From the NCBI RefSeq assembly GCF_040869035.1, contig NZ_CP162100.1:1488001-1552000 (forward strand): DNA of 64,000 nt, given 5' to 3'. The stretch's first letter is position 1, and each line of letters starts with the position of its first letter. This stretch comes from Vibrio sp. NTOU-M3 (GTDB lineage Bacteria; Pseudomonadota; Gammaproteobacteria; Enterobacterales; Vibrionaceae). A program made the position numbers and the translations under genes. Positions 34,791-47,180 of this stretch are shown piece after piece. The notes below the pieces were generated by a model. It was given only the letters and a program-made list of their open reading frames with translations. It searched no databases and was not told the origin of the DNA.

Positions 34791-34822
34791 ACAAAGCCCG
34801 CAAAAAGCGGGCTTTGTTTTTT
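34791..34822. terminator. Bidirectional terminator
   Basis: ACAAAGCCCGC (34791-34801) and GCGGGCTTTGT (34807-34817) form an 11-bp stem with an AAAAA loop, T-run on the plus side and A-run on the other. It separates two convergent genes. Confidence 0.92.
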
Positions 34823-35516
34823 ATTTCATATGGAAAATTTGTTCTGTCTCAAGAGAGGTCATGGCGCGGATCTGACGCCAAACATAGTAAAAGATACCAA
34901 ACATCATCAGCATGCTTGGAATAGCGATAATAGGGTAGCTGTACAACGTTAACTTGCCTAACTCCTCATTGAATGCTGGTGTCCCAGCAGGGCTGGTCAC
35001 AATCCAAGTCGCTAGAAAATAGTTCATTGCTGAAGAAAACGCGAAAGTACTGGCGAATAGGTAGTTAGACGACATTAAGCAGCGCTCAAACGCTTCAGAT
35101 TTTCCATTCTCTTTTAAACGCTCAGTGATCAAAGATAGGTTTAGCACGGTGTCGTTTAAGACCATCTTTTGCATCAATGGGTAGCGGGTAAATGTTGAAC
35201 CTAAAACAGCTAAACCAATTAAGCCAGGGATCAATGCTTCTTTCAGCGCTAACCAGCGGGTATCGAGTTCTAATAAGCCAATACCGCCTGTTAGTAGCAC
35301 ACTAATAAAGCCGAGTGCGGAGATAAAGTTAAACTTCTTATTACGGATAAGATCCATGCCACCGTAAACGATAGGAAAGAGTAAAGCGACGACTAGTGCC
35401 ATGGCGGTGCCTAGGTGCTCATCTCCACTGAGTTTCATCAAAATGATAGATGGGATAATTACGTTAAAGAGGATCTCGAATAGGGGATTCGACTTTTTTG
35501 TGGTCTTGTTGTTCAT
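34821..35516 (-). CDS. VC0807-like inner-membrane protein
   Basis: Integral membrane protein of 231 residues with about six hydrophobic segments (PLFEILFNVIIPSIILMKL, AMALVVALLFPIVYGGMDLI, FISALGFISVLLTGGIGLL, ALIPGLIGLAVLGSTF, YLFASTFAFSSAMNYFLATW, PIIAIPSMLMMFGIFYYVWR). The pattern resembles the VC0807 family of Vibrio proteins, distantly like intracellular septation protein A. No catalytic motif is visible. It is a single gene; function unknown. Confidence 0.8.
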   Translation of the reverse strand: MNNKTTKKSNPLFEILFNVIIPSIILMKLSGDEHLGTAMALVVALLFPIVYGGMDLIRNKKFNFISALGFISVLLTGGIGLLELDTRWLALKEALIPGLIGLAVLGSTFTRYPLMQKMVLNDTVLNLSLITERLKENGKSEAFERCLMSSNYLFASTFAFSSAMNYFLATWIVTSPAGTPAFNEELGKLTLYSYPIIAIPSMLMMFGIFYYVWRQIRAMTSLETEQIFHMK

Positions 35517-35702: not shown

Positions 35703-36593
35703 TTAAGCATTATCGTCATTATAGTTTAAGTATTGTATACACAGGTCGTGAAAGGCCTTAGCCTGTGGGGAAATTGTTCGGTCGGATAAGGTGAAAATAC
35801 CAATTTGTCGCTCTAAAGGTGGGTCGATGAGTGGAATCCAAACTAAGCGCGTTTCATTCGTTGGGAATGCCAACTTTGGTAACGTAGTCACGCCGATTCC
35901 TAGTTCTAGCACTGAGAACAAGGACGTAATGTTTTCGACAGAGTATAAAGCTTGTTCACTTAAGGTGCGTGCTGGAGTAGGGTCGAGTAGGGTGCACGTA
36001 CCATTTCGGATAAAAGGTTGCTCAAGTAACGTTTGCCATTCCACCCCTTCTGGATGACTCGCGATAGGGTTATCTTTTAAACACACCACGCCAATGGGAT
36101 CAGAGAGTAAAGGTGTAAACTCAATCCCCCCTTCATCTAGTTGAGAAGCGTTGCCTAGTGCTAAATCTACCTCTCCTGATAACAATCTTGCTTCAACGCC
36201 GGCAGCATTATCATCAATTAAACTCACCTCAACGTTTGGGAATTGTTCACAGAATGCGCCTAATACGCTCGGAATGAGCTTGGCGGCAACCGAAGGGACA
36301 CTTGCGATACGTACGCGGCCCTGTTGCCCGGCTGCTGCTGCTCTTAGGTCGTTATCCAATGCATCGTAAATATTTAGGAACTGCACAATCTTAGGTAAAC
36401 AGATTTCACCAAATGGCGTGAGCTTGGATTTGTTGCCTGATTCAAATAGGGATTGGCCAAGGATTTTTTCCAGTTCTTTGATTGACGTTGATAGTGCGGC
36501 TTGTGAACGGTTTGCTCTATGTGAGGCTGCTCGAAAACCACCTTCCTCGACCACCATCACAAAATTGTTTAATTGTTGCAGTTTGATCTTCAT
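35703..36593 (-). CDS. LysR-family transcriptional regulator of the catabolic operon
   Basis: DNA-binding regulator of 296 residues. The N-terminal winged helix-turn-helix is KIKLQQLNNFVMVVEEGGF with RAASHRANRSQAALSTSIKE; the effector domain starts near residue 90 (GRVRIASVPSVAAKLIPSVL). It is transcribed divergently from the RidA-ALDH-peptidase-transporter operon, with a perfect inverted repeat between them (36639-36657), so it most likely controls that operon in response to its substrate or an intermediate. The substrate is not known. Confidence 0.92.
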   Translation of the reverse strand: MKIKLQQLNNFVMVVEEGGFRAASHRANRSQAALSTSIKELEKILGQSLFESGNKSKLTPFGEICLPKIVQFLNIYDALDNDLRAAAAGQQGRVRIASVPSVAAKLIPSVLGAFCEQFPNVEVSLIDDNAAGVEARLLSGEVDLALGNASQLDEGGIEFTPLLSDPIGVVCLKDNPIASHPEGVEWQTLLEQPFIRNGTCTLLDPTPARTLSEQALYSVENITSLFSVLELGIGVTTLPKLAFPTNETRLVWIPLIDPPLERQIGIFTLSDRTISPQAKAFHDLCIQYLNYNDDNA

Positions 36594-36638
36594 GGAGAAG
36601 CCTCTCTAATCCCTTCATTTATCGAGCTTTCATAAAAG

Positions 36639-36657
36639 TGATAAGTTTTTCTTATCA
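36639..36657. promoter_or_regulatory. Probable LysR operator
   Basis: TGATAAG (36639-36645) and CTTATCA (36651-36657) form a perfect 7-5-7 inverted repeat in the gap between the divergent LysR gene and the catabolic operon. It fits the T-N11-A form of LysR sites and lies about 90 bp before the first catabolic gene. Confidence 0.7.
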
Positions 36658-36748
36658 AATGTAAGAAATTTACCGTTCGATTTATCGCCTGTCAATGTGC
36701 AGTATTTAACCAAATTGAAACAAGGTTATTACAAAGGTTAACGAGCAC

Positions 36749-37147
36749 GTGAACAGTTCTACAAAAAAATACCCAGTAAAAACGGCATTATTTGCCTCTA
36801 AAGCGCCGCTGGAATGGGCAATCGTCAACAATGGCACTTTATACACTGCGCAAATCCCGATTGATGATACTGGTGCTGTCGTGGAAGGCGGTATCGAAGC
36901 GCAAACTCGTCAAACCTTTAATAATCTCGTTCACACGTTGGAGTGTGCAGGAGAGTCTTTAGACTCTGTTCTGCAAGTGCTGATTTATGTGACGGATCGT
37001 GAGTACTTAAAAACGGTTAACCAAGTCTACGCTGAGTATTTTGACGCGCCTTACCCTAATCGCGCAGCCATGGTTGTGGCAGGGCTAGCCCGTGAAGAGA
37101 TGCTGGTGGAGTTTGTGGTGTACGCATCTGCAAGTCAGTCGGAGTAG
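36749..37147 (+). CDS. RidA-family (YjgF/UK114) protein
   Basis: Small trimeric enzyme family that hydrolyses reactive enamine/imine intermediates to keto acids; 132 residues with a GTG start. The key arginine R105 in PYPNRAAMVVAGL and the glutamate E121 in MLVEFVVYA are present at the expected places, so imine deaminase activity is possible. First gene of the operon behind the LysR operator, followed 84 bp later by the aldehyde dehydrogenase. Its presence points to an amino- or imino-compound as pathway substrate. Confidence 0.92.
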   Translation: MNSSTKKYPVKTALFASKAPLEWAIVNNGTLYTAQIPIDDTGAVVEGGIEAQTRQTFNNLVHTLECAGESLDSVLQVLIYVTDREYLKTVNQVYAEYFDAPYPNRAAMVVAGLAREEMLVEFVVYASASQSE

Positions 37148-37231
37148 AGAAGAGCTTAATCGCAGGGCTTTATAAGTGAGATTAATGAACTGGTGCAAAT
37201 GACCAGACGTCGGAAGAATAAGGATAGAGCA

Positions 37232-38692
37232 ATGACTTTTATTAATAGTGTTCAAGCAGAGAGATCTCTTTACATTGCAGGTGAATGGCAATCAGGCGTC
37301 AACACGGTTGCGAATATTAACCCTTCAGACATCGGTGAAAATTTAGGTGATTTTGCTCAGGCGAGTGAGGGACAAGTAGAACAAGCGATTCAAGCTGCAA
37401 AAGCCGCACAACCAGAGTGGGAAAACACGCCGATTGAACGCAAACAAGCGGTGTTGCAGGCGATTGGTGATGAGCTAATCGCACGCTGCGATGAGCTTGG
37501 CACGCTGCTTTCACGTGAAGAAGGTAAGCCATTTGCTGAAGGTCGTGGTGAGATCTACCGCGCAGGTCAATTCTTCCAATACTTTGCAGCTGAAGTGCTG
37601 CGCCAAATTGGCGATAACGCGGCTTCTGTCCGTCCAGGCGTCTCCGTTGAGGTAACTCGCGAAGCAGTTGGCGTTATCGCCATTATCTCTCCTTGGAATT
37701 TCCCAACTGCTACTGCCGCGTGGAAAATCGCGCCAGCGCTTGCTTTCGGCAATAGCGTCATTTGGAAACCTGCAAACCTAACGCCAGCAAGTGCCGTTGC
37801 ACTGACAGAGATTATCCATCGTCAAGGCTTACCTGCAGGCACATTCAACCTTGTTCTGGGCAGTGGCTCCCAAGTGGGTAACACGCTTATCAACTCGAAA
37901 GACGTAAATGGCGTGAGCTTTACTGGCTCTGTGGATACCGGACGCAAAGTCGCGGCAGCAACAGCACCGAATTTTGTTCGCTGCCAGTTAGAAATGGGCA
38001 GCAAAAACGCACTAGTGGTTGCCGATGATGCTGACATTCAAATCGCCGTTGAAGCGACCATTGCAGGATCTTTCTCTGGCGCAGGTCAGAAGTGTACCGC
38101 GTCTTCTCGCTTAGTCGTCATGGATGGAATTCACGATGCGTACGTAGAAGCACTGATCAAACGAATGAGCGAGCTTAAAGTCGGTCACGCTTTAGAAGAA
38201 GGCGTTTTCATGGGACCTGTTGTGGATGGAAACCAATTGAATGCCAACTTTGAATGGATTGAGAAAGCACGTCAAAGTGGTGCGGAATTAGCATTCGGAG
38301 GCGAGCGCTTGAACTTAGAACATGACGGTTTCTACATGTCGCCAACCCTTTTCCTCAATACGCAAAACAGTTGGGAAGTGAACCAAGAAGAAGTGTTTGC
38401 GCCAATGGCAAGCGTGATTCGAGTTTCTGACTTGGACGAAGCCATTGCTGTCGCGAATGATACTCGCTTTGGCTTAACGGGCGGCATCATTACGCAAAGC
38501 CTCCGTAACAGCGCCATCTTCAAACAGCAAGCTCAAACTGGCTGTGTCATGGTCAACCTACCAACCGCAGGAACGGATTATCACGTGCCGTTTGGTGGTC
38601 GTAAAGAGTCGAGCTTTGGTCCGCGCGAGCAAGGTCAATACGCAAAAGAATTCTACACCGTGGTGAAAACCGCTTATCAACGTCCTTACTAA
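37232..38692 (+). CDS. Aldehyde dehydrogenase, alpha-ketoglutaric semialdehyde DH-like
   Basis: NAD(P)-dependent enzyme of 486 residues oxidising an aldehyde to an acid. The ATG at 37232 is chosen because AAGGA lies upstream; a longer frame from 37193 adds a basic run that looks untranslated. Motifs: cofactor site GVIAIISPWNFPTATAAWKI and FTGSVDTGRKVAAA, glutamate in CQLEMGSKNALVV, catalytic C288 in GAGQKCTASSRLVV, and EEVFAPMASVIRV. The GQKCTASSR context is typical of the YcbD/KGSADH group that oxidises 2,5-dioxovalerate, an intermediate of hydroxyproline and sugar-acid catabolism. Here neighbours (RidA, M19-like protein, BCCT carrier) point to a nitrogen compound instead; the true aldehyde is unknown. 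Confidence 0.9.
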   Translation: MTFINSVQAERSLYIAGEWQSGVNTVANINPSDIGENLGDFAQASEGQVEQAIQAAKAAQPEWENTPIERKQAVLQAIGDELIARCDELGTLLSREEGKPFAEGRGEIYRAGQFFQYFAAEVLRQIGDNAASVRPGVSVEVTREAVGVIAIISPWNFPTATAAWKIAPALAFGNSVIWKPANLTPASAVALTEIIHRQGLPAGTFNLVLGSGSQVGNTLINSKDVNGVSFTGSVDTGRKVAAATAPNFVRCQLEMGSKNALVVADDADIQIAVEATIAGSFSGAGQKCTASSRLVVMDGIHDAYVEALIKRMSELKVGHALEEGVFMGPVVDGNQLNANFEWIEKARQSGAELAFGGERLNLEHDGFYMSPTLFLNTQNSWEVNQEEVFAPMASVIRVSDLDEAIAVANDTRFGLTGGIITQSLRNSAIFKQQAQTGCVMVNLPTAGTDYHVPFGGRKESSFGPREQGQYAKEFYTVVKTAYQRPY

Positions 38693-38759
38693 GTGAAATT
38701 GGGCAGCCGATGATTCCGCTGCTCAACCTAAAAGGCTTATTAACGTTTAAGGAGTGGTT

Positions 38760-39746
38760 ATGTACCAACAACGGATTGTGATTGATGGATTGCAGTACTG
38801 CAATTGGGATCGAGAATACTTCCAAACGCTGAAGGCGAGCGGTATTACGGCTGTGCATGCGACGATTGTTTATCATGAGAATGCACGAGAGACCTTAACT
38901 CGCTTTGCCGAATGGAACCTGAGATTCGAACAAAATGCAGATCTGATTATGCCTATTTACTCGATGGCTGACGTCGAGAAAGCAAAAGCAGAGGGAAAGG
39001 TTGGTGTCTTCTTTGGCGCGCAGAATTGCTCCCCAATTGATGATGAAATCGGCTTAATAGAAGTCATGCGTCGCCAAGGTTTGTTGATTATGCAACTGAC
39101 ATACAACAACCAAAGCTTGCTGGCAACAGGGTGCTATGAGCAGAACGACTCAGGTGTCACACGTTTTGGTAAACAAGCTATCGAAGAGATGAACCGTGTC
39201 GGGATGATTATCGACATGTCCCACAGCGCTGAGCGCTCAACGTTGGAAGCGATTGACCTTTCTTCACGTCCCATTTGCATTAGTCACGCGAACCCAACCT
39301 TTGCTCATGATGCTCTGCGCAACAAATCGAACAACGTCATTAAAGCGCTCACCGAACGTGGCGGCTTAATTGGCTTTAGTCTTTATCCATTCCATCTTCC
39401 AAACGGAAGCCATTGCACGCTAGAAGATTTCTGCCAAATGGTCGCGAAAACTGCCGATCAGTTCGGTGTGGATCATTTAGGCATCGGCAGTGATCTTTGT
39501 TTAAACCAACCACAGCAAGTGCTTGAGTGGATGCGCAACGGTCGTTGGTCCAAAGCAATGGACTATGGTGAAGGCTCCGCTAGTAATGCGGGGTGGCCTG
39601 ATGCTTTGCCTTGGTTTAGTGGCAGTAAAGGGATGGAGAACATTTACAACGGCTTAATGCGTCATGGATTCAGTGAATCCGAGGCAGGAAAAATCCTGGG
39701 TGAGAACTGGTTTAACTTCCTTAAAGAAGGGCTGGAGGCAAACTAA
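38760..39746 (+). CDS. M19 membrane-dipeptidase-like protein with altered metal site
   Basis: Homologue of renal dipeptidase (peptidase M19), a zinc amidohydrolase-fold enzyme; 328 residues. Start ATG 38760 has AAGGAG five bases upstream. Family signatures: IIDMSHSAERSTLEAIDLSS, RPICISHANP, DALRNKSNNVIKALTERGG, DHLGIGSDLCLN and ILGENWFNFLKE. The usual N-terminal DGHND, which gives two zinc ligands (His and Asp), reads DGLQY here, so one metal-site pair is lost although later histidines remain. A role as a divergent amidase/hydrolase in the pathway is more likely than as a general dipeptidase. Third gene of the catabolic operon, no signal peptide. Confidence 0.88.
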   Translation: MYQQRIVIDGLQYCNWDREYFQTLKASGITAVHATIVYHENARETLTRFAEWNLRFEQNADLIMPIYSMADVEKAKAEGKVGVFFGAQNCSPIDDEIGLIEVMRRQGLLIMQLTYNNQSLLATGCYEQNDSGVTRFGKQAIEEMNRVGMIIDMSHSAERSTLEAIDLSSRPICISHANPTFAHDALRNKSNNVIKALTERGGLIGFSLYPFHLPNGSHCTLEDFCQMVAKTADQFGVDHLGIGSDLCLNQPQQVLEWMRNGRWSKAMDYGEGSASNAGWPDALPWFSGSKGMENIYNGLMRHGFSESEAGKILGENWFNFLKEGLEAN

Positions 39747-39860
39747 GTTGTAACCCAAATAAACATGGAATAGCCCGCTAAAAACACAATAACAAGGTGG
39801 GTGTTAAAGTCACTTTTTGTAGCCGTTAAGGCAGCTGCAATAAACCTCTGGAGTCAGAGT

Positions 39861-41465
39861 ATGTCTGATCTAACCAATAGCATGAAAGCTTCAGCGATGA
39901 GTTCGTCATCAGAGAAGCAGCAAGCAAAACACAGCGACACTTTAGCAACAGAAAATTCACCGGATAAGTTAGGGTTGAGTAACCCTGCACTTTGGTATAG
40001 CGGTGGTTTCATCGCCTTATTCGTAGCTATCGCGCTTTACGATGGTGACCTGTTATCAACCCTTGTTAACTCAGGGTTTGCCTGGTCAGTAAAAGTATTT
40101 GGTCCATATTGGCAGATACTGCTTCTTCTCACCTTTCTTATTGGTCTTGGTTTGGCGGCAGGGCGAACAGGTAAGGTGATTTTAGGCGGAACCGCAAAGC
40201 CAGAAATGAATGGTTTCCGTTGGATGGCAATCATCTTCTGTACGCTTTTAGCTGGCGGCGGCGTATTTTGGGCGGCGGCAGAGCCTATCGCGCACTACGT
40301 GAGTCCTCCTCCTTTGTATGGTCCGCAAGACAATCCTCAGCAAGGTGCCATTAACGCGTTGTCACAGTCGTTTATGCACTGGGGTTTTCTAGCGTGGGCT
40401 ATTGTTGGCAGCTTAACGTCTATCGTGGTCATGCATTTACATTACGATAAAGGGCTGCCGTTAAAACCTCGCATCTTGCTTTATCCAATGCTGGGTGAGC
40501 GAGCGCTAAAAGGTCAAACGGGTGCGCTGATTGACGCATGTTGCATCATCGCTGTAGCGGCAGGAACCATTGGGCCGATTGGGTTCCTAGGTTTACAGGT
40601 TAGCTACGCGTTAAATGCACTGTTTGATATCCCAGATGGCTTTACCACACAGTTGATCATCATCTTATTTGCGATTGTGTTGTACACCGTATCAGCTCTA
40701 AGTGGCTTAAACCGCGGCATGCAAATGCTGAGTCGCTATAACGTGATCCTCGCACTTGCGCTGATGGTTTACATTCTGCTGTTTGGCCCAACAGATTTCA
40801 TCTTCAATGGTTATATTCAAGGCGTGGGTACCATGCTGGATAACTTCATCCCAATGGCAACCTACCGCGGCGATGAAGGCTGGTTGAGTTGGTGGACAGT
40901 ATTCTTCTGGGGCTGGTTCTTGGGCTATGGACCGATGATGGCAATCTTTATTGCCCGCATTTCTCGTGGCCGTAGTATTCGACAGATCATTACCACGATC
41001 AGCATTGTTGCACCGCTTACAACCTGCTTCTGGTTCACCATTGTTGGTGGCTCAGGTCTCGCGTTTGAAATCGCTAACCCGGGTAGTGTGAGTGCCGCAT
41101 TTGAAGGCTTCAATTTACCCGGAGCACTTCTCGCTGTGACACAACAATTACCGTTACCAATGTTGGTGTCCATTTTATTCCTGATCCTAACCACTATCTT
41201 CATCGTTACTACAGGCGACTCGATGACCTACACCATTAGTGTCGTGATCAGTGGCGAGACAGAACCTAATGCCATTATTCGCACCTTCTGGGGTGTAGCG
41301 ATGGGTGTAACAGCATTAATTCTAATTTCGCTTGGGTCTGGTGGTGTTTCAGCCTTGCAGTCCTTCATTGTGATAACCGCAGTTCCAGTGTCCCTGATCT
41401 TGTTACCGTCACTTTGGAATGCGCCGCAAATTGCCATCAAGATGGCCAAAGAACAAGGGCTATAA
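39861..41465 (+). CDS. BCCT-family betaine/choline/carnitine-type transporter
   Basis: Inner-membrane carrier of 534 residues with twelve predicted helices. ATG 39861 has GGAG upstream; a GTG 60 bp earlier is less likely. The N-terminal cytoplasmic tail (about 45 residues) is followed by GFIALFVAIALYDGDLLSTL and VFWAAAEPIAHYVSPPPLYG. The conserved core region WWTVFFWGWFLGYGPMMAIF with IARISRGRSIRQ is present (tryptophan-rich signature of the family). BCCT carriers use sodium or proton gradients to import quaternary or zwitterionic amines. Within this operon it should supply the substrate; long C-terminal osmosensory tail is absent, arguing for catabolic uptake and not osmoprotection. Confidence 0.93.
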   Translation: MSDLTNSMKASAMSSSSEKQQAKHSDTLATENSPDKLGLSNPALWYSGGFIALFVAIALYDGDLLSTLVNSGFAWSVKVFGPYWQILLLLTFLIGLGLAAGRTGKVILGGTAKPEMNGFRWMAIIFCTLLAGGGVFWAAAEPIAHYVSPPPLYGPQDNPQQGAINALSQSFMHWGFLAWAIVGSLTSIVVMHLHYDKGLPLKPRILLYPMLGERALKGQTGALIDACCIIAVAAGTIGPIGFLGLQVSYALNALFDIPDGFTTQLIIILFAIVLYTVSALSGLNRGMQMLSRYNVILALALMVYILLFGPTDFIFNGYIQGVGTMLDNFIPMATYRGDEGWLSWWTVFFWGWFLGYGPMMAIFIARISRGRSIRQIITTISIVAPLTTCFWFTIVGGSGLAFEIANPGSVSAAFEGFNLPGALLAVTQQLPLPMLVSILFLILTTIFIVTTGDSMTYTISVVISGETEPNAIIRTFWGVAMGVTALILISLGSGGVSALQSFIVITAVPVSLILLPSLWNAPQIAIKMAKEQGL

Positions 41466-41562
41466 CTGGCTCAAATAACCAATAACGTGGAGCTTGTGCG
41501 GGTGAATTTTCCTGCATCCGCACAAGTCTAAATTCTTACAATAAAAATAGGTGGTGAGCAAA

Positions 41563-43299
41563 ATGGATGCACATCGTTCTACTTATACCAAAGCTACACT
41601 CCGCAATGCTGCAATTGTAATGGCGCCACACAGGCTAGGGGCTATGCACCAAAATCGAATCAGCTTTGTGCGAAGCTTGATCCGAAAAATGGCAAACCAA
41701 AAGTGGCAAGTAAGCAAACATGAATGGCAGTTGTGTCCACGTGGCTTTGGTTACGTGATATACAAATTAGCGACACCGGAACACATTTACCATCTGGTTG
41801 TGTTCTGTGATGAAATTGCCGATGAAGAGCGTAATGACCGAGTGATCGCCGAGAAATGGGACGTAACCTTTGCTTTGGTAAAAGGTGATGTGAACGTCGA
41901 ACTGCTAGAGCAACTTCGAGCCAATGTTCCTTTGCAGGAAGCTGGGCGTAACCCAAACAAAGTGCTTGTACTTGCTCGTGCGAATAAGAGTGTTCGTGTG
42001 TTTGAACATATCGTGAATGCGCTTGCTAAAGGTACGCAACCAGAGCCTGCGGAGCTGGCAGAGGTTGGTTATATCCTAAGAACTACCGCCGTTTATGGCA
42101 ATGGAAAGTTTGGCATTGCAGATTTTAAGCTGCTAGAAAACAATTCAGATTTCAATCAGTCGTTCAGTGCACAAATGTGCGCGGTGTACATGCTTCGCGA
42201 ATTCAGCTTGGATTGGGTGCATTATCTGGCTCAGCAACAAGGTGGAGACAGAGCCATTAGACTTCACAAAGGTCTGCAGCGTTACCTTGGTGTTGGTAAC
42301 GCAACAGGCCTAGGTATGGCACCTTACTTAATCAATCATCCATGCATTGTCGATCAATGGATGACGTCACGTGAAGGTGCTGTCGCGAGCGTGTTAGCCA
42401 TGTCATGTGAAGCGAAGCAAGGGCAAGCATTACAAACGTTACTTGCCAAAGCACAGCGCCATCTAGAGCAAGTTATCACCATTAACGAACATCAAGATCA
42501 ACTCAATCATCAAGCGATAGAAGACATCCAAGCGCTGAAAATCAATTTGAATGTATTGATCGCGAAACATTCAAACTGGGCGAGCGTAATCGAACAAACC
42601 AACTCAATGAGTTTGGAAGCCCAAGAAATCCTAATGTCATGTTTGATCGAACTTTACCCATCTTTGACTGATGAATTTGAAAACCAAATGAACACCAATG
42701 AGTCACTTTCCATTCCAGCAGGCAAGCGTGTTCAAGATATTCTACAAACACTAGAAAGCAAATACCGTTGGTCTATCGATGCAGATTACTCGTTACCAGA
42801 GAACAACTATTGGTTCTGGTATCGTTCGCAAGATAAAGAAGAGCCAAGGCTCGGTGTTCGTGGAGAAGAAATTGGCGAAGATCGTGAGTTGCCACTCGAC
42901 ATTGGGCGGCAGGTAAACCGTCTTTACCATGCACTCAATAAGTGCCAACCGGACATCTCGTTGGCTGAGTTCTTACTGCAACATCCGCAATATCGTGCGA
43001 TCACTCGTCGCGTATGGACGCTTGGCAATCGCGAAATGGGCGATATTCAAATGAATGTGCTACGAGAAGATGCACTGCCAATGCATCTACTTCGTTGTAA
43101 GTTGGCCATCTTTGGTGCCACTAAGTTTGATCCGCGATCAGACCGTTGGGTTCGTGTGACTTTCTTCCAAGGTGCTCCGTTGCTGGATGAGATTAACGAC
43201 CCCAATTACACCGACACTTGGATGTTCCCAACCATGCCGGAGCATGAGGAAATCGCGCAAAGCGATAATCAAAAAATCGATGGAGGTTGTGCACAATGA
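41563..43299 (+). CDS. Unknown protein of the BCCT catabolic operon
   Basis: A 578-residue protein for which I recognise no family. ATG 41563 is preferred: AGGTGGTGAG precedes it. No signal peptide or membrane helix; it is likely cytoplasmic. Visible features are a mixed alpha/beta N-terminal part (FGYVIYKLATPEHIYHLVV, CDEIADEERNDRVIAEKWDV), a stretch with VRVFEHIVNALAKGTQPEPA, a His/Gly-containing centre (YLGVGNATGLGMAPYLINHP), a Gln-rich helical segment and an aromatic patch (NYWFWYRSQDKEEPRLGVRG). It overlaps the next gene by four bases. Position between transporter and the next unknown gene implies an enzyme or subunit acting on the imported compound. Confidence 0.85.
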   Translation: MDAHRSTYTKATLRNAAIVMAPHRLGAMHQNRISFVRSLIRKMANQKWQVSKHEWQLCPRGFGYVIYKLATPEHIYHLVVFCDEIADEERNDRVIAEKWDVTFALVKGDVNVELLEQLRANVPLQEAGRNPNKVLVLARANKSVRVFEHIVNALAKGTQPEPAELAEVGYILRTTAVYGNGKFGIADFKLLENNSDFNQSFSAQMCAVYMLREFSLDWVHYLAQQQGGDRAIRLHKGLQRYLGVGNATGLGMAPYLINHPCIVDQWMTSREGAVASVLAMSCEAKQGQALQTLLAKAQRHLEQVITINEHQDQLNHQAIEDIQALKINLNVLIAKHSNWASVIEQTNSMSLEAQEILMSCLIELYPSLTDEFENQMNTNESLSIPAGKRVQDILQTLESKYRWSIDADYSLPENNYWFWYRSQDKEEPRLGVRGEEIGEDRELPLDIGRQVNRLYHALNKCQPDISLAEFLLQHPQYRAITRRVWTLGNREMGDIQMNVLREDALPMHLLRCKLAIFGATKFDPRSDRWVRVTFFQGAPLLDEINDPNYTDTWMFPTMPEHEEIAQSDNQKIDGGCAQ

Positions 43300-44027
43300 T
43301 CGTCTCTCACAATGAACTGGTTGCAGCGGTAAACAAAGCGTTTTTGGGTATGCGTCGTCACTGTGGTGAAGCTGATGTGATCGCCAATATGGTTGCGGAT
43401 CTGCAAATGGTGGGTTTGCACGGTGTGCGTCATTTCAACAATGCTAGTCTGTTTCTCAATTTGGACTCTGACTGCGCAGTAACCATCACTGGCAACACGG
43501 ATTCGGCTATTGAAGTAGAACTGCATAATGGCAGTATCGCATGTCATTTGCCTGCGGTATTGGATTTTGCATTGGAGAAAATGGTCAATAGTAAATCTGT
43601 CACCATCACGCTGAAGCAATGCCACAACCGTTGGTTAGCGTTTAGTGAATTAGTTAGACTCTCGGCCAAAGGAATAGCGTGTCGTGCACAATGGGTAAAT
43701 GGAACCAGTCCTAAACGTACTTTGTATGTGCTAAACCGTGGCCGTATTGCACCAGAGGTGTTCTTTTCTGATCAACTAAAAAGCCACGACACAGATTTCC
43801 ACAAAATGACGATTGAACTGTCCGTCAATGATTACGATATTGAAGCGACTTCTCAGGGTTACGCAATTCACATTGAAGGAGACGAACTGAGTCAAGCGCA
43901 AAGAACGTCGTGGCAAGAAGGTATTTTCGTTGAAGATTCTGAGTGGAATGCTTTGAAGCAAACTGCGACTGTATTCCTTGTTGAAAACAGTGAGCGTTCA
44001 ATTCAAGGGGCAGGCGAGTTGGCTTGA
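43296..44027 (+). CDS. Unknown, DUF3726-like protein with lactate/malate-DH-like N-terminus
   Basis: A 243-residue protein; the ATG at 43296 overlaps the previous stop codon (ATGA) and has GGAGG upstream. The N-terminus (SHNELVAAVNKAFLGMRRHC, EADVIANMVADLQMVGLHG) resembles the first helices of the YlbC/Ldh2 malate-lactate dehydrogenase group, where a conserved His-Gly follows; the rest does not show a full cofactor site. It may belong to the uncharacterised DUF3726 family, from memory and unverified. Translational coupling to the 578-residue protein suggests two subunits of one enzyme. Last gene of the operon; hairpin terminator follows. Confidence 0.82.
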   Translation: MIVSHNELVAAVNKAFLGMRRHCGEADVIANMVADLQMVGLHGVRHFNNASLFLNLDSDCAVTITGNTDSAIEVELHNGSIACHLPAVLDFALEKMVNSKSVTITLKQCHNRWLAFSELVRLSAKGIACRAQWVNGTSPKRTLYVLNRGRIAPEVFFSDQLKSHDTDFHKMTIELSVNDYDIEATSQGYAIHIEGDELSQAQRTSWQEGIFVEDSEWNALKQTATVFLVENSERSIQGAGELA

Positions 44028-44142: not shown

Positions 44143-46164
44143 TTATTTATTTGGCATCGGGAGAATGTCGAACAATCCGTCAAACTCATCCAATGTGTCA
44201 GCCAGTTTATCCAGCAGTGATATGTTGCCTTTTACACTGGCGCGACCAGACTCAAACAACGCTTCCAAGGTTGTTTCACCAAGCACAACTTTAGTGAAGT
44301 CCGTTTTGTTAATGACTAACTCAAAATCAACCTTTGGCAGCGTATCCACTTGGATATTCGCCATGTTCGCGTTCGATACTTCACCATAGTAATGCTCGTT
44401 CAAATCTGGGTGGTAGACACCAAAGTTAAAATCAAGTTGTGCAGCTTCTGCTTTTGGCGCATTTAAGCTAACAGCGATAAAATCCAAGAACATGCCTGTT
44501 GGTGTATTCGCGATCACATCGGCTGAAGCCAGTTTGATGGATGGCTGAATGTCACCGGTACGTAGCTCGACAGCCCCTTGTAAATAGCTATTGCGCCATG
44601 CCATTGTTTCGGATTGATAACCTTGTTGCTCAAAACTGTCAGCCAAAGCAAAACGGTATTTGATATTGCTAGGTGCACATTGCACTAAGTCATTAAACAG
44701 TTGTGATGCCTCTTGATATTCGCCCTTATTAAAATGCTCCATACCTGCGTTGTACAATGTATCTGTTCCTGCGGCGTTGACATAAACGCATGATTTTTCA
44801 GTGGTTTGAAGCGGGTTAGTATTAACCGGATTCATATCATGATAACCCAGGTACAGATTTACGACTGCGCGGGCATTGTGACTGTATGAACCGTGGTAGC
44901 CATTGGTATGCCACGTATCGATTTGAGATTGTGGTACAATTTTCTCAATCTCGCGCCCAACATCGTGGATGGTTACGCCATGATTGGCTAAGCGCATCGC
45001 TTGGTTATGAATAAAGCCATAGTTGTCTCGTTGTAACGTCATGTATTGGGAAATCTCGTTGATCTCAGTGCCAGCATCGTTCCAAACCGGGGCTGAATGG
45101 GCCGCGTGAATGTTGTCAACGAGTCCGCTATCGACAAAGCGCATTTTCAATTCGGTAAGATATTTCGTCCACACGAGAGCATCACGTACTTTTGCACCAC
45201 GGAAGGTATAGATGTTGTGCATGCCATCGTAGGTCAACTCAGCAGTATTGAGTGAACGGTATTCAGGTACGTAGAGCACAATCTCAGCGGGTGCTTCTGC
45301 CCCCGGCATGTTAATCGCGTGGAATTTGAGACCGTCGATTTCAAACATTTTCTCGCGGCTTTGAATCTCTTCTGTTGGTGCAACTAATGTTACTTCACCA
45401 CGAGATGTCCCAAGTCCAAGAGCATTATCTACGATACCTTTGGTGTTGTTATCCAATGTTGTTCCATATTGATAATTGGCGCGGCGGCCCATTGCGGTAC
45501 CAGCGATCACGTTTTCATCAGCGAGCTCTTTAATGAAGTCTTTTGGTGCGAGAATGGGGGCATCTTTAGCAAAATCACCAGATTCATATATCCCGCGAGA
45601 GCCTCCAAAGTGGTCTGCATGCATGTGGGAGTAGATCATGCCTGTAATTTTGTGTTCAACGTTGATCGCGGGTAAATGTTGTTTGGCAAACTCCCAAGAT
45701 GCGGCTGCAGCTTGACGAGACAATAATGGATCATGAATCACGTAGCCATTGTCAGTGCGATAGATTGTCATGTTTGAGAGATCCGCGCCACGAATTTGGT
45801 AAACACCATCGGCCACTTCATATAAACCACCGGCGGCATAATTCAACATGCCTTGACGCCAGATAGATGGGTTCACTGTAGCTGGCAAGTCTTCGACAGA
45901 CATGTCCGTCATGTATTCAAATCGGTTTTTAAGCTCTCCGGCTTCGTGGGTACCAAACTCGGCAATGAGGCCACGCGCAGTACGTTGGAATGCAGAAGTA
46001 TCCTCCCATGGCAGTATGCGTGCCACTGCGGCATTCGCTTGTTTTGTATGTGTAGAGGCGGGTTTTCCTTCATAAGTGTCAATGGATGCGTAATCGTTCG
46101 CAACGGCATTAAAGGACACAATGATTGCAAGTGACAAAACAGAAGGAACAAAACGAGTTTTCAT
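44143..46164 (-). CDS. SdsA-type alkylsulfatase (MBL-fold)
   Basis: Secreted or periplasmic sulfatase that hydrolyses primary alkyl sulfates such as SDS; 673 residues. ATG 46164 is preferred because it opens a signal peptide (FVPSVLSLAIIVSFNAVA) and has AGAGG upstream; a 19-codon extension is unlikely. The metallo-beta-lactamase core has the zinc motif MIYSHMHADHFGGSRG; the sulfatase-specific parts include RANYQYGTTLDNN and ELTYDGMHNIYTFRGAKVRD. A dimerisation domain follows, and an SCP2-like C-terminal domain (about 560-670, INKTDFTKVVLGETTLEALF). It is divergent from a LysR regulator, the usual arrangement for inducible alkylsulfatases. Confidence 0.94.
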   Translation of the reverse strand: MKTRFVPSVLSLAIIVSFNAVANDYASIDTYEGKPASTHTKQANAAVARILPWEDTSAFQRTARGLIAEFGTHEAGELKNRFEYMTDMSVEDLPATVNPSIWRQGMLNYAAGGLYEVADGVYQIRGADLSNMTIYRTDNGYVIHDPLLSRQAAAASWEFAKQHLPAINVEHKITGMIYSHMHADHFGGSRGIYESGDFAKDAPILAPKDFIKELADENVIAGTAMGRRANYQYGTTLDNNTKGIVDNALGLGTSRGEVTLVAPTEEIQSREKMFEIDGLKFHAINMPGAEAPAEIVLYVPEYRSLNTAELTYDGMHNIYTFRGAKVRDALVWTKYLTELKMRFVDSGLVDNIHAAHSAPVWNDAGTEINEISQYMTLQRDNYGFIHNQAMRLANHGVTIHDVGREIEKIVPQSQIDTWHTNGYHGSYSHNARAVVNLYLGYHDMNPVNTNPLQTTEKSCVYVNAAGTDTLYNAGMEHFNKGEYQEASQLFNDLVQCAPSNIKYRFALADSFEQQGYQSETMAWRNSYLQGAVELRTGDIQPSIKLASADVIANTPTGMFLDFIAVSLNAPKAEAAQLDFNFGVYHPDLNEHYYGEVSNANMANIQVDTLPKVDFELVINKTDFTKVVLGETTLEALFESGRASVKGNISLLDKLADTLDEFDGLFDILPMPNK

Positions 46165-46280
46165 ACGGAACCTCTTTGGCTTAGGTATTGGGTATGTGCT
46201 TAATGTAATCCGTTGACACATATCAATACATGCATGAAACTGTATTTAACACATCGCGATTTGTTATGTATGAGGAAGGC

Positions 46281-47180
46281 GTGCTCAACAATTTAGATTT
46301 AAATCTACTCAAAGTCTTTGTCGCTGTGTATCGACATCAGTCAATCACACTTGCAGCAGAACAGTTGGGACTAACTCAGCCAGGCGTCAGTGGGTTACTT
46401 AAGCGCCTGCAACAACAAGTAGGTAGCCAATTGTTTGTGCGGGCAGGGCGGGGAATTGCACCAACTCAACATGCACAGGAGCTCGTTCGCCACGTGGAAC
46501 CCGCTTTAGTTCAGATCAGCAATGCATTGGAAAGTCTTCAAGGTTTTTCAACTGAGTACCCAAGAAAGTTTGTGGTGTATACCTCTGAGCCCGTGATGTT
46601 GATGCTTTTGCCGAAAATAGAGGCAGATACGAGCCTAGGTAATGTCACGATTGAGTTACAGCCGACCCTCGCCAATGAAGAGATGCTGATCCAAGGCCTT
46701 AACCAACATCAAGCTGATCTGGCGGTCGAATTTGCCAGTTATTCAAACCCTTCGTTTTTTACTGAATCACTGTTTGAAGATGAGATTTGTGTGATTGCCC
46801 GAAAAGGCCATCCTAGAGTGACTAAGAGGCTATCTCAAGAGCAGTACTACAAAGAAAAGCACATTACGTTAAAGTTACGCAGAGAAGATGCTTACCTCGT
46901 TGATTACTTTACAAAAGAGCGTATTGAAGAGCGTGATGTAGCTGCTGAATGTACGTCGTTGCTGTCACAAATGTCGATGGTTTCAACCAGTGATTGTGTT
47001 GCGACAATGACCGCGAGCATCGCCAAGTTGTTTGCTGATAAATTGGATATCCAAGTTATGGATGTGCCATTTACCACCATTCCTATTCGCTACCTCTTAA
47101 TGGCTCATAATCGAGAGCGTAAAAGCCCATCGAATGTTTGGTTAAGAAATAAGATCAAATCTTATTTTGAAACTGATTAG
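46281..47180 (+). CDS. LysR-family regulator, divergent from alkylsulfatase
   Basis: Transcription factor of about 299 residues. I prefer the GTG at 46281 (protein begins LNNLDLNLLKVFVAVYRHQS) because GAGGAAGG lies just before it and the length matches the family; ATG codons at 46230 and 46266 would add 17 or 5 residues without a ribosome-binding site. The HTH is TLAAEQLGLTQPGVSGLLKR. The effector domain begins near PRKFVVYTSEPVMLMLLPKI. The divergent layout implies control of the sulfatase gene; the 100-bp gap contains no clearly palindromic operator that I can see. Confidence 0.88.
   Translation: MLNNLDLNLLKVFVAVYRHQSITLAAEQLGLTQPGVSGLLKRLQQQVGSQLFVRAGRGIAPTQHAQELVRHVEPALVQISNALESLQGFSTEYPRKFVVYTSEPVMLMLLPKIEADTSLGNVTIELQPTLANEEMLIQGLNQHQADLAVEFASYSNPSFFTESLFEDEICVIARKGHPRVTKRLSQEQYYKEKHITLKLRREDAYLVDYFTKERIEERDVAAECTSLLSQMSMVSTSDCVATMTASIAKLFADKLDIQVMDVPFTTIPIRYLLMAHNRERKSPSNVWLRNKIKSYFETD

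Follow-up and report, generated by a model that had tools for sequence, protein, structure and literature searches.

A 64,000-nucleotide stretch of the genome of Vibrio sp. NTOU-M3 (contig NZ_CP162100.1, positions 1,488,001 to 1,552,000; hereafter the window) carries an operon of six genes next to a divergent gene for a LysR-family regulator (Table 1). The products are a RidA-family protein, an aldehyde dehydrogenase (ALDH), an M19-like protein, a BCCT transporter, a 578-residue protein that we call P578, and a 243-residue DUF3726 protein. On balance, we favor a model in which a widespread operon acting on an N-methylated pyridinium betaine, with homarine (N-methylpicolinate) as the likeliest substrate, is present here in its Vibrio form. 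The operon is probably the Vibrio variant of a recently published pathway, with a ring-attacking protein that is still uncharacterized. An earlier note on this DNA described the same gene anatomy, and all of its genes are present at the stated coordinates, with Pfam support for all but P578. Its view that the operon is undescribed has become doubtful, as a pathway for homarine appeared in print in 2026, although its genes may not be the same ones.

In the proposed route, the BCCT carrier would import homarine, and P578 together with the DUF3726 protein would cleave the ring at C5-C6 to yield an N-formyl-N-methyl-amino C5 semialdehyde. The model for this cleavage is TgnAB, which cleaves trigonelline. 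The ALDH would oxidize the aldehyde of the ring-cleavage product, and the M19-like enzyme would remove the formyl group, or perform an equivalent step, to give 2-(methylimino)glutarate. In Vibrio, Pseudomonas and Caballeronia, RidA would hydrolyze this compound to 2-oxoglutarate and methylamine. In many Alphaproteobacteria, an imine reductase of the lactate/malate dehydrogenase type 2 (LDH2) family would give N-methylglutamate, which N-methylglutamate dehydrogenase (Mgd) would convert to glutamate.

The published pathway (Ferrer-Gonzalez and colleagues, Nat Microbiol, 2026) reportedly involves a conserved operon of five genes and a regulator, homABCDER, in Rhodobacterales, SAR11 and SAR116, and leads to N-methylglutamate and Mgd. 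Several alphaproteobacterial copies of our operon resemble this set: they have LysR, ALDH, M19, P578, DUF3726 and Ldh2 genes, and some lie near Mgd. In L083 and L085, for instance, a regulator and five genes that look like enzyme genes are accompanied by a transporter gene. The Vibrio form differs in having RidA and BCCT genes, and it lacks both a close Ldh2 and a full-length Mgd alpha subunit. The trigonelline pathway (tgnABCDE) would share the same logic, namely ring opening to an N-formyl semialdehyde, aldehyde oxidation and amide hydrolysis. However, it uses a TgnAB-type oxygenase, whereas none is recognized here and P578-DUF3726 stands in its place.

Conservation and distribution

Scanning genomes with P578 yielded 94 confirmed relatives, the best 80 of which were used as genome loci. 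These 80 come from Vibrio, Photobacterium, Aliivibrio, Enterovibrio, Veronia, Moritella, Psychromonas, Zobellella, a Francisella species and a metagenome-assembled genome (MAG) labelled Bordetella. Searches with phmmer found P578 and DUF3726 in 80/80 loci, ALDH, M19 and BCCT in 79/80 each, RidA in 78/80 and LysR in 77/80, and gene order is identical wherever the genes were detected. This co-occurrence supports a catabolic unit that is inherited together, in line with the operon proposed earlier. Locus L077 lacks both RidA and LysR, and L068 lacks LysR. Locus L025 starts at a contig end 236 bases ahead of P578, and thus its upstream genes have been cut off.

P578 is carried by 84 of 196 sampled Vibrio genomes (the window's own included), by 29 of 398 sampled genomes of the phylum and by 53 of 385 from the class of genome G115, taken as Alphaproteobacteria; the phylum and class samples overlap, with some genomes in both. 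The best named relative, at 98% identity, is from Vibrio sp. TRT 21S02, homologues of P578 and DUF3726 are also recorded under the name V. natriegens, and the block also recurs in other Proteobacteria. Four carriers in the class of G115 have genomes of 1.2-1.4 Mb and a regional GC content of 28-36%, from which we infer a SAR11-type profile, in agreement with the reported occurrence of the published operon in SAR11.

The Francisella species (L079) has all seven genes and the Bordetella-labelled MAG (L068) has no LysR match, with P578 identities of 54-59%. The P578 of the MAG forms a long branch among Psychromonas, Moritella and Vibrionaceae rows of the P578 tree, and its label may therefore be wrong. 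Genomes G083, G099, G183 and G319 each have two P578 copies. The second copy in G083 (L159) adjoins an M19-like gene, and its locus has a DUF3726-profile match and no ALDH, BCCT, RidA or Ldh2 matches.

The proposed imine step and the link to N-methylglutamate

Among 143 loci with a P578 score of at least 300 bits, 84 have RidA, 30 have Ldh2, none has both and 29 have neither (a few of these loci share a genome, and the flanks were limited). In the Protein Data Bank, the nearest entry to the alphaproteobacterial Ldh2 is an imine reductase, delta1-piperideine-2-carboxylate reductase (4.6e-67, next entry 2.6e-47). The simplest reading is that a single N-methylimino acid is hydrolyzed by RidA in some loci and reduced by Ldh2 in others. 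The RidA gene comes first in the operon of Vibrionaceae, but lies at the opposite end in L088, L155, L156, L191 and L192, and past the BCCT gene in L082.

PMC13390433, citing Ferrer-Gonzalez et al. 2026 (doi 10.1038/s41564-026-02313-7), has Mgd taking part in homarine catabolism. Mgd in the same organism, a trait taken from this source that may not define the operon, is found in L083, L085 and L086 and not in the window's genome. There, the Mgd or sarcosine oxidase (Sox) alpha subunit has a partial match only (residues 626-862, 30%), the best Ldh2 match is 24% and the best GmaS match is partial at 38%, none of them close. The absence of a full-length Sox/Mgd alpha subunit, a close Ldh2 and a close GmaS fits a route that ends with RidA.

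In Ruegeria sp. TM1040, Phaeobacter inhibens and 'Roseateles' sp. XES5, a four-subunit 'sarcosine oxidase' is encoded within a few kilobases of the operon. The beta subunits near the operon in these three genomes (loci L083, L085 and L086) are 72-86% identical to copies linked to mgs/gmaS in Aminobacter and Rhizobium leguminosarum. Identity falls to 51-56% with copies from Paracoccus seriniphilus and from Azospirillum, where the genes lie beside those for glyA and serine ammonia-lyase. A beta-subunit tree separates the Mgd-linked copies from the latter two with support of 100/98, in 11 rows with long branches on two Sox-side rows and L148, for which the tool warned of long-branch joining. Because the copies of L083, L085 and L086 group with those linked to mgs/gmaS, they are probably Mgd. 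The sarcosine identity of these neighboring genes is rejected by the same tree. Sox/Mgd-type subunits also occur near the operon in L158, L214, L146 and L148; of these, the tree includes L148 alone, which falls on its Mgd side at the end of a long branch, and L146, L147 and L158 were excluded for having no usable beta subunit. The pyridinium betaine substrate proposed earlier is thus supported at the level of the N-methylated amine class, through Mgd linkage in some relatives, and a pyridinium betaine is plausible.

Transport

The predicted BCCT carrier is confirmed, and is present in 79/80 genome loci as well as L083 and L085. In some relatives (L084, L086, L089, L175, L144 and L145) the carrier is an OpuA-type ABC set. 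In L087, the core genes are followed by an ABC set of the branched-chain type, and some other loci have neither BCCT nor OpuA within the flank.

The glycine-betaine pocket of BCCT carriers is given in PMC12093977 as Trp203, Trp208, Tyr211, Trp380, Trp381 and Trp384. By motif spacing rather than alignment to the protein of that source, the positions of Tyr211, Trp381 and Trp384 are changed in 91/91 aligned operon carriers (V/L/T202, F373 and Y376 as replacements), and the other three are kept. The same source reports that three V. natriegens carriers with related pocket changes (BCCT4, BCCT6 and BCCT7) moved no tested osmolyte, and its authors note that expression was not tested. The operon carrier may or may not be one of these three.

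P578 and the DUF3726 protein

Of the two proteins to which the earlier note gave no function, database searches place only the smaller. P578 has no Pfam family above the cut-off (one sub-threshold match only), and its AlphaFold2 model (predicted local distance difference test score 87.4, predicted template modeling score 0.89) gave no Foldseek match to solved structures at E<=0.001. The 243-residue protein belongs to DUF3726 and has a shortened LDH2-type (PF02615) fold, as its lactate/malate dehydrogenase likeness had suggested. Relative to the LDH2/delta1-piperideine-2-carboxylate reductase family (1wtj, 3uoe), with about 335 residues, it is some 90-100 residues shorter. It lacks the DQSAS and GGYKGFG stretches, which the partner Ldh has, and its residue 42, matched by eye to the catalytic SHG histidine site, varies, so it is not a full-length LDH2 enzyme. 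No significant profile-profile match was found between DUF3726 and the partner Ldh. A literature search on DUF3726 found no paper.

The pairing of P578 and DUF3726 is near-constant across loci. We assign ring attack to the pair by elimination, with P578 as the proposed ring-attacking subunit and DUF3726 as its proposed partner, and this step is, with the M19-like step, among the least certain of the route. Plasmid-borne paralogous sets (Table 1) carry P578 relatives at 29-33% identity, DUF3726-like partners (profile E values 6e-10, 7e-11 and 1e-4, from a test of six proteins), an M19-like gene, an IclR regulator and other transporters. From these IclR-linked sets, P578-DUF3726-M19 looks like a reusable module. 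More speculatively, and with rather more doubt than belief, we propose that the P578-DUF3726 pair represents a novel class of ring-opening enzymes, in which a large subunit of unassigned fold, rich in invariant arginines, works with a lactate/malate dehydrogenase relative that has lost its cofactor segment. With the M19-like partner it would form a module reused for different N-heterocycles (LysR/BCCT, LysR/OpuA and IclR/ABC forms), and the Vibrio route would end in RidA-driven methylamine release.

Long open frames had suggested that fusions of the two proteins are common. This was rejected, as only one true fusion occurs among 150 loci (814 residues, L087:11956-14400, Mesorhizobium sp. 131-2-1).

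The M19-like protein, ALDH and RidA

The nearest solved structure to the M19-like protein is 2i5g (E 1.7e-61), which we take to be PA5396. The protein shares the fold family of 2i5g and the M19 dipeptidases, and H157, H178 and D247 are kept in 144/144 aligned members. However, the canonical two-metal ligands of M19 dipeptidases are absent. The histidine of the HxD motif is L13 in 143/144 proteins (T in one), its aspartate is Y15 in 138 (C in four, M in two), and the bridging glutamate is Gln90 in 144/144. The HxD positions were placed by motif and the glutamate by alignment to 3id7, with the ligand positions taken from renal dipeptidase. In the alignment, 2i5g itself also lacks the HxD and glutamate letters. 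Because the canonical ligands are replaced in all 144, the dipeptidase annotation is unreliable and probably wrong for this subfamily, and the cleavage step that the earlier note assigned to the protein is weakened.

The ALDH scores 469.7 bits with its best NCBIfam model, NF042993 (alpha-ketoglutaric semialdehyde dehydrogenase, GucD), below the cut-off of 770. It belongs to the ALDH superfamily, with catalytic C301 and E267 kept in 112/112 aligned proteins. RidA falls below the NCBIfam TIGR00004 cut-off (75.1 versus 106.25 bits) and belongs to Pfam PF01042. R105, presumably the catalytic arginine position, is kept in 85/85 aligned proteins, the window's included.

Weighing the alternatives

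Several observations weigh against homarine as the substrate. The published homarine genes may not be those of this operon. No recognizable oxygenase was found among the block genes by Pfam scan, and the M19-like protein, without the canonical ligands for amide hydrolysis, falls outside the M19 dipeptidases. In the P578 tree, the RidA loci cluster in its gamma/beta part, and because the RidA/Ldh2 split follows that tree, it represents few independent events, although the position of RidA in the operon varies. Mgd lies within the flank in only 3/7 Ldh2-type plasmid loci (L083-L087, L089 and L175), with no Sox/Mgd subunit in the flank read of L084, L087, L089 or L175, and the Mgd link could also arise if a different N-methyl compound released methylamine. 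Of 55 other loci, just 24 have ALDH close to P578, and thus some relatives may act differently. Copies in the soil hosts Aminobacter and Caballeronia would need a terrestrial source of homarine. A 2021 paper found poorer growth of R. pomeroyi on homarine than on trigonelline, and a 2025 paper that it drew homarine down quickly; R. pomeroyi may or may not carry this operon.

In favor of homarine, the 2021 paper describes it as abundant in marine phytoplankton, although values given there were later corrected as overstated. Among the matches listed from the homarine literature, none describes such an operon, and a search combining BCCT, M19, RidA and aldehyde dehydrogenase found no paper.

The strongest competitor, which we nonetheless consider unlikely, is that the same logic serves to break down a different N-methylated ring betaine (trigonelline, proline or hydroxyproline betaine, or another plant or marine compound), the match to homarine being coincidental. 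Copies in soil Rhizobiales, Caballeronia and Pseudomonas, where homarine is not obvious, fit this explanation, as do two mandelate-racemase-family genes and a second BCCT gene near the Pseudomonas locus L082 and the IclR-linked paralogous sets of Sinorhizobium, Variovorax and Aminobacter with their other transporters. However, trigonelline already has its own TgnAB pathway and, by the Tgn logic, homarine and not trigonelline would yield the glutamate skeleton for Mgd.

It is very improbable that the operon is a catabolic cluster for glycine betaine, dimethylglycine or sarcosine, an idea raised by PA5396-like 'dipeptidases' beside dgcAB and by the closeness of the M19-like protein to 2i5g. PMC12093977 places a predicted dipeptidase before dgcAB in V. 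natriegens and P. aeruginosa. The block, however, contains no dgc, gbc or sox gene, three of the six residues of the glycine-betaine pocket are altered in every aligned BCCT carrier, and the window's genome has no full-length Sox alpha subunit. Just as improbable is an operon for salvage of peptides or amino acid derivatives with a true dipeptidase, since the Pfam M19 match (2.5e-71) is offset by the replaced HxD and glutamate in 144/144 members and by BCCT/OpuA transporters that appear ill-suited to peptides.

Locus organization and regulator region

The P578 and DUF3726 genes share four bases (an ATGA overlap), and gaps of 45-97 bases separate the other neighbors in the operon. This spacing suggests that the genes from RidA to DUF3726 form a single transcript in which P578 and DUF3726 are coupled.

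Table 1. Features of the operon and regulator region in the window, and paralogous sets from other genomes.
Feature	Coordinates	Strand	Family match or host
LysR-family regulator, divergent	35703..36593	-	PF00126 + PF03466
Perfect dyad TGATAAG-N5-CTTATCA, putative LysR box	36639..36657	strandless	
RidA-family protein	36749..37147	+	PF01042, 2.4e-23
Aldehyde dehydrogenase (ALDH)	37193..38692	+	PF00171 (Aldedh)
M19-like protein, amidohydrolase fold, metal site altered	38754..39746	+	PF01244 (Peptidase_M19), 2.5e-71
BCCT transporter	39801..41465	+	PF02028, 3.1e-148, 494.7 bits vs cut-off 27
P578, 578 aa from ATG	41563..43299	+	no Pfam above cut-off
DUF3726 protein, 243 aa from ATG	43296..44027	+	PF12525 (DUF3726)
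Paralogous P578/DUF3726-like/M19 sets	L172:8944-12390, L173:8941-12437, L174:8962-12370		Sinorhizobium meliloti pSymB, Variovorax, Aminobacter plasmids

The LysR protein would sense the substrate or a pathway intermediate. The perfect inverted repeat reported earlier is present upstream of RidA, but carries little weight alone, as perfect 7-bp arms with a gap of 3-8 arise in 159/2000 single-base shuffles of the stretch and the exact dyad is present in just 5/78 intergenic regions. Its core, TGATA-N9-TATC, is found in 58/77 intergenic regions (window included) versus 3/1540 shuffles.

Just past the LysR gene lies a gene for a VC0807-family protein (34821-35516, minus strand). On the other side, a 692-residue protein (44143-46221, minus strand) has weak metallo-beta-lactamase (MBL) and TPR-like matches, and presumably resembles alkyl sulfatases. 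It is adjoined by a second LysR gene (LysR2, 46230-47180) that is LeuO-like but below the cut-off. The VC0807, MBL and LysR2 genes have no match over the reporting limit in L002-L081, and the genomic site of the operon therefore seems variable.

Implications

If our model is correct, invertebrate-associated vibrios would be among the consumers of homarine, and P578, carried by 84/196 sampled Vibrio genomes, would serve as the marker gene. The model names P578 as the likely ring-opening enzyme. It also predicts that these bacteria would release methylamine instead of forming glutamate.

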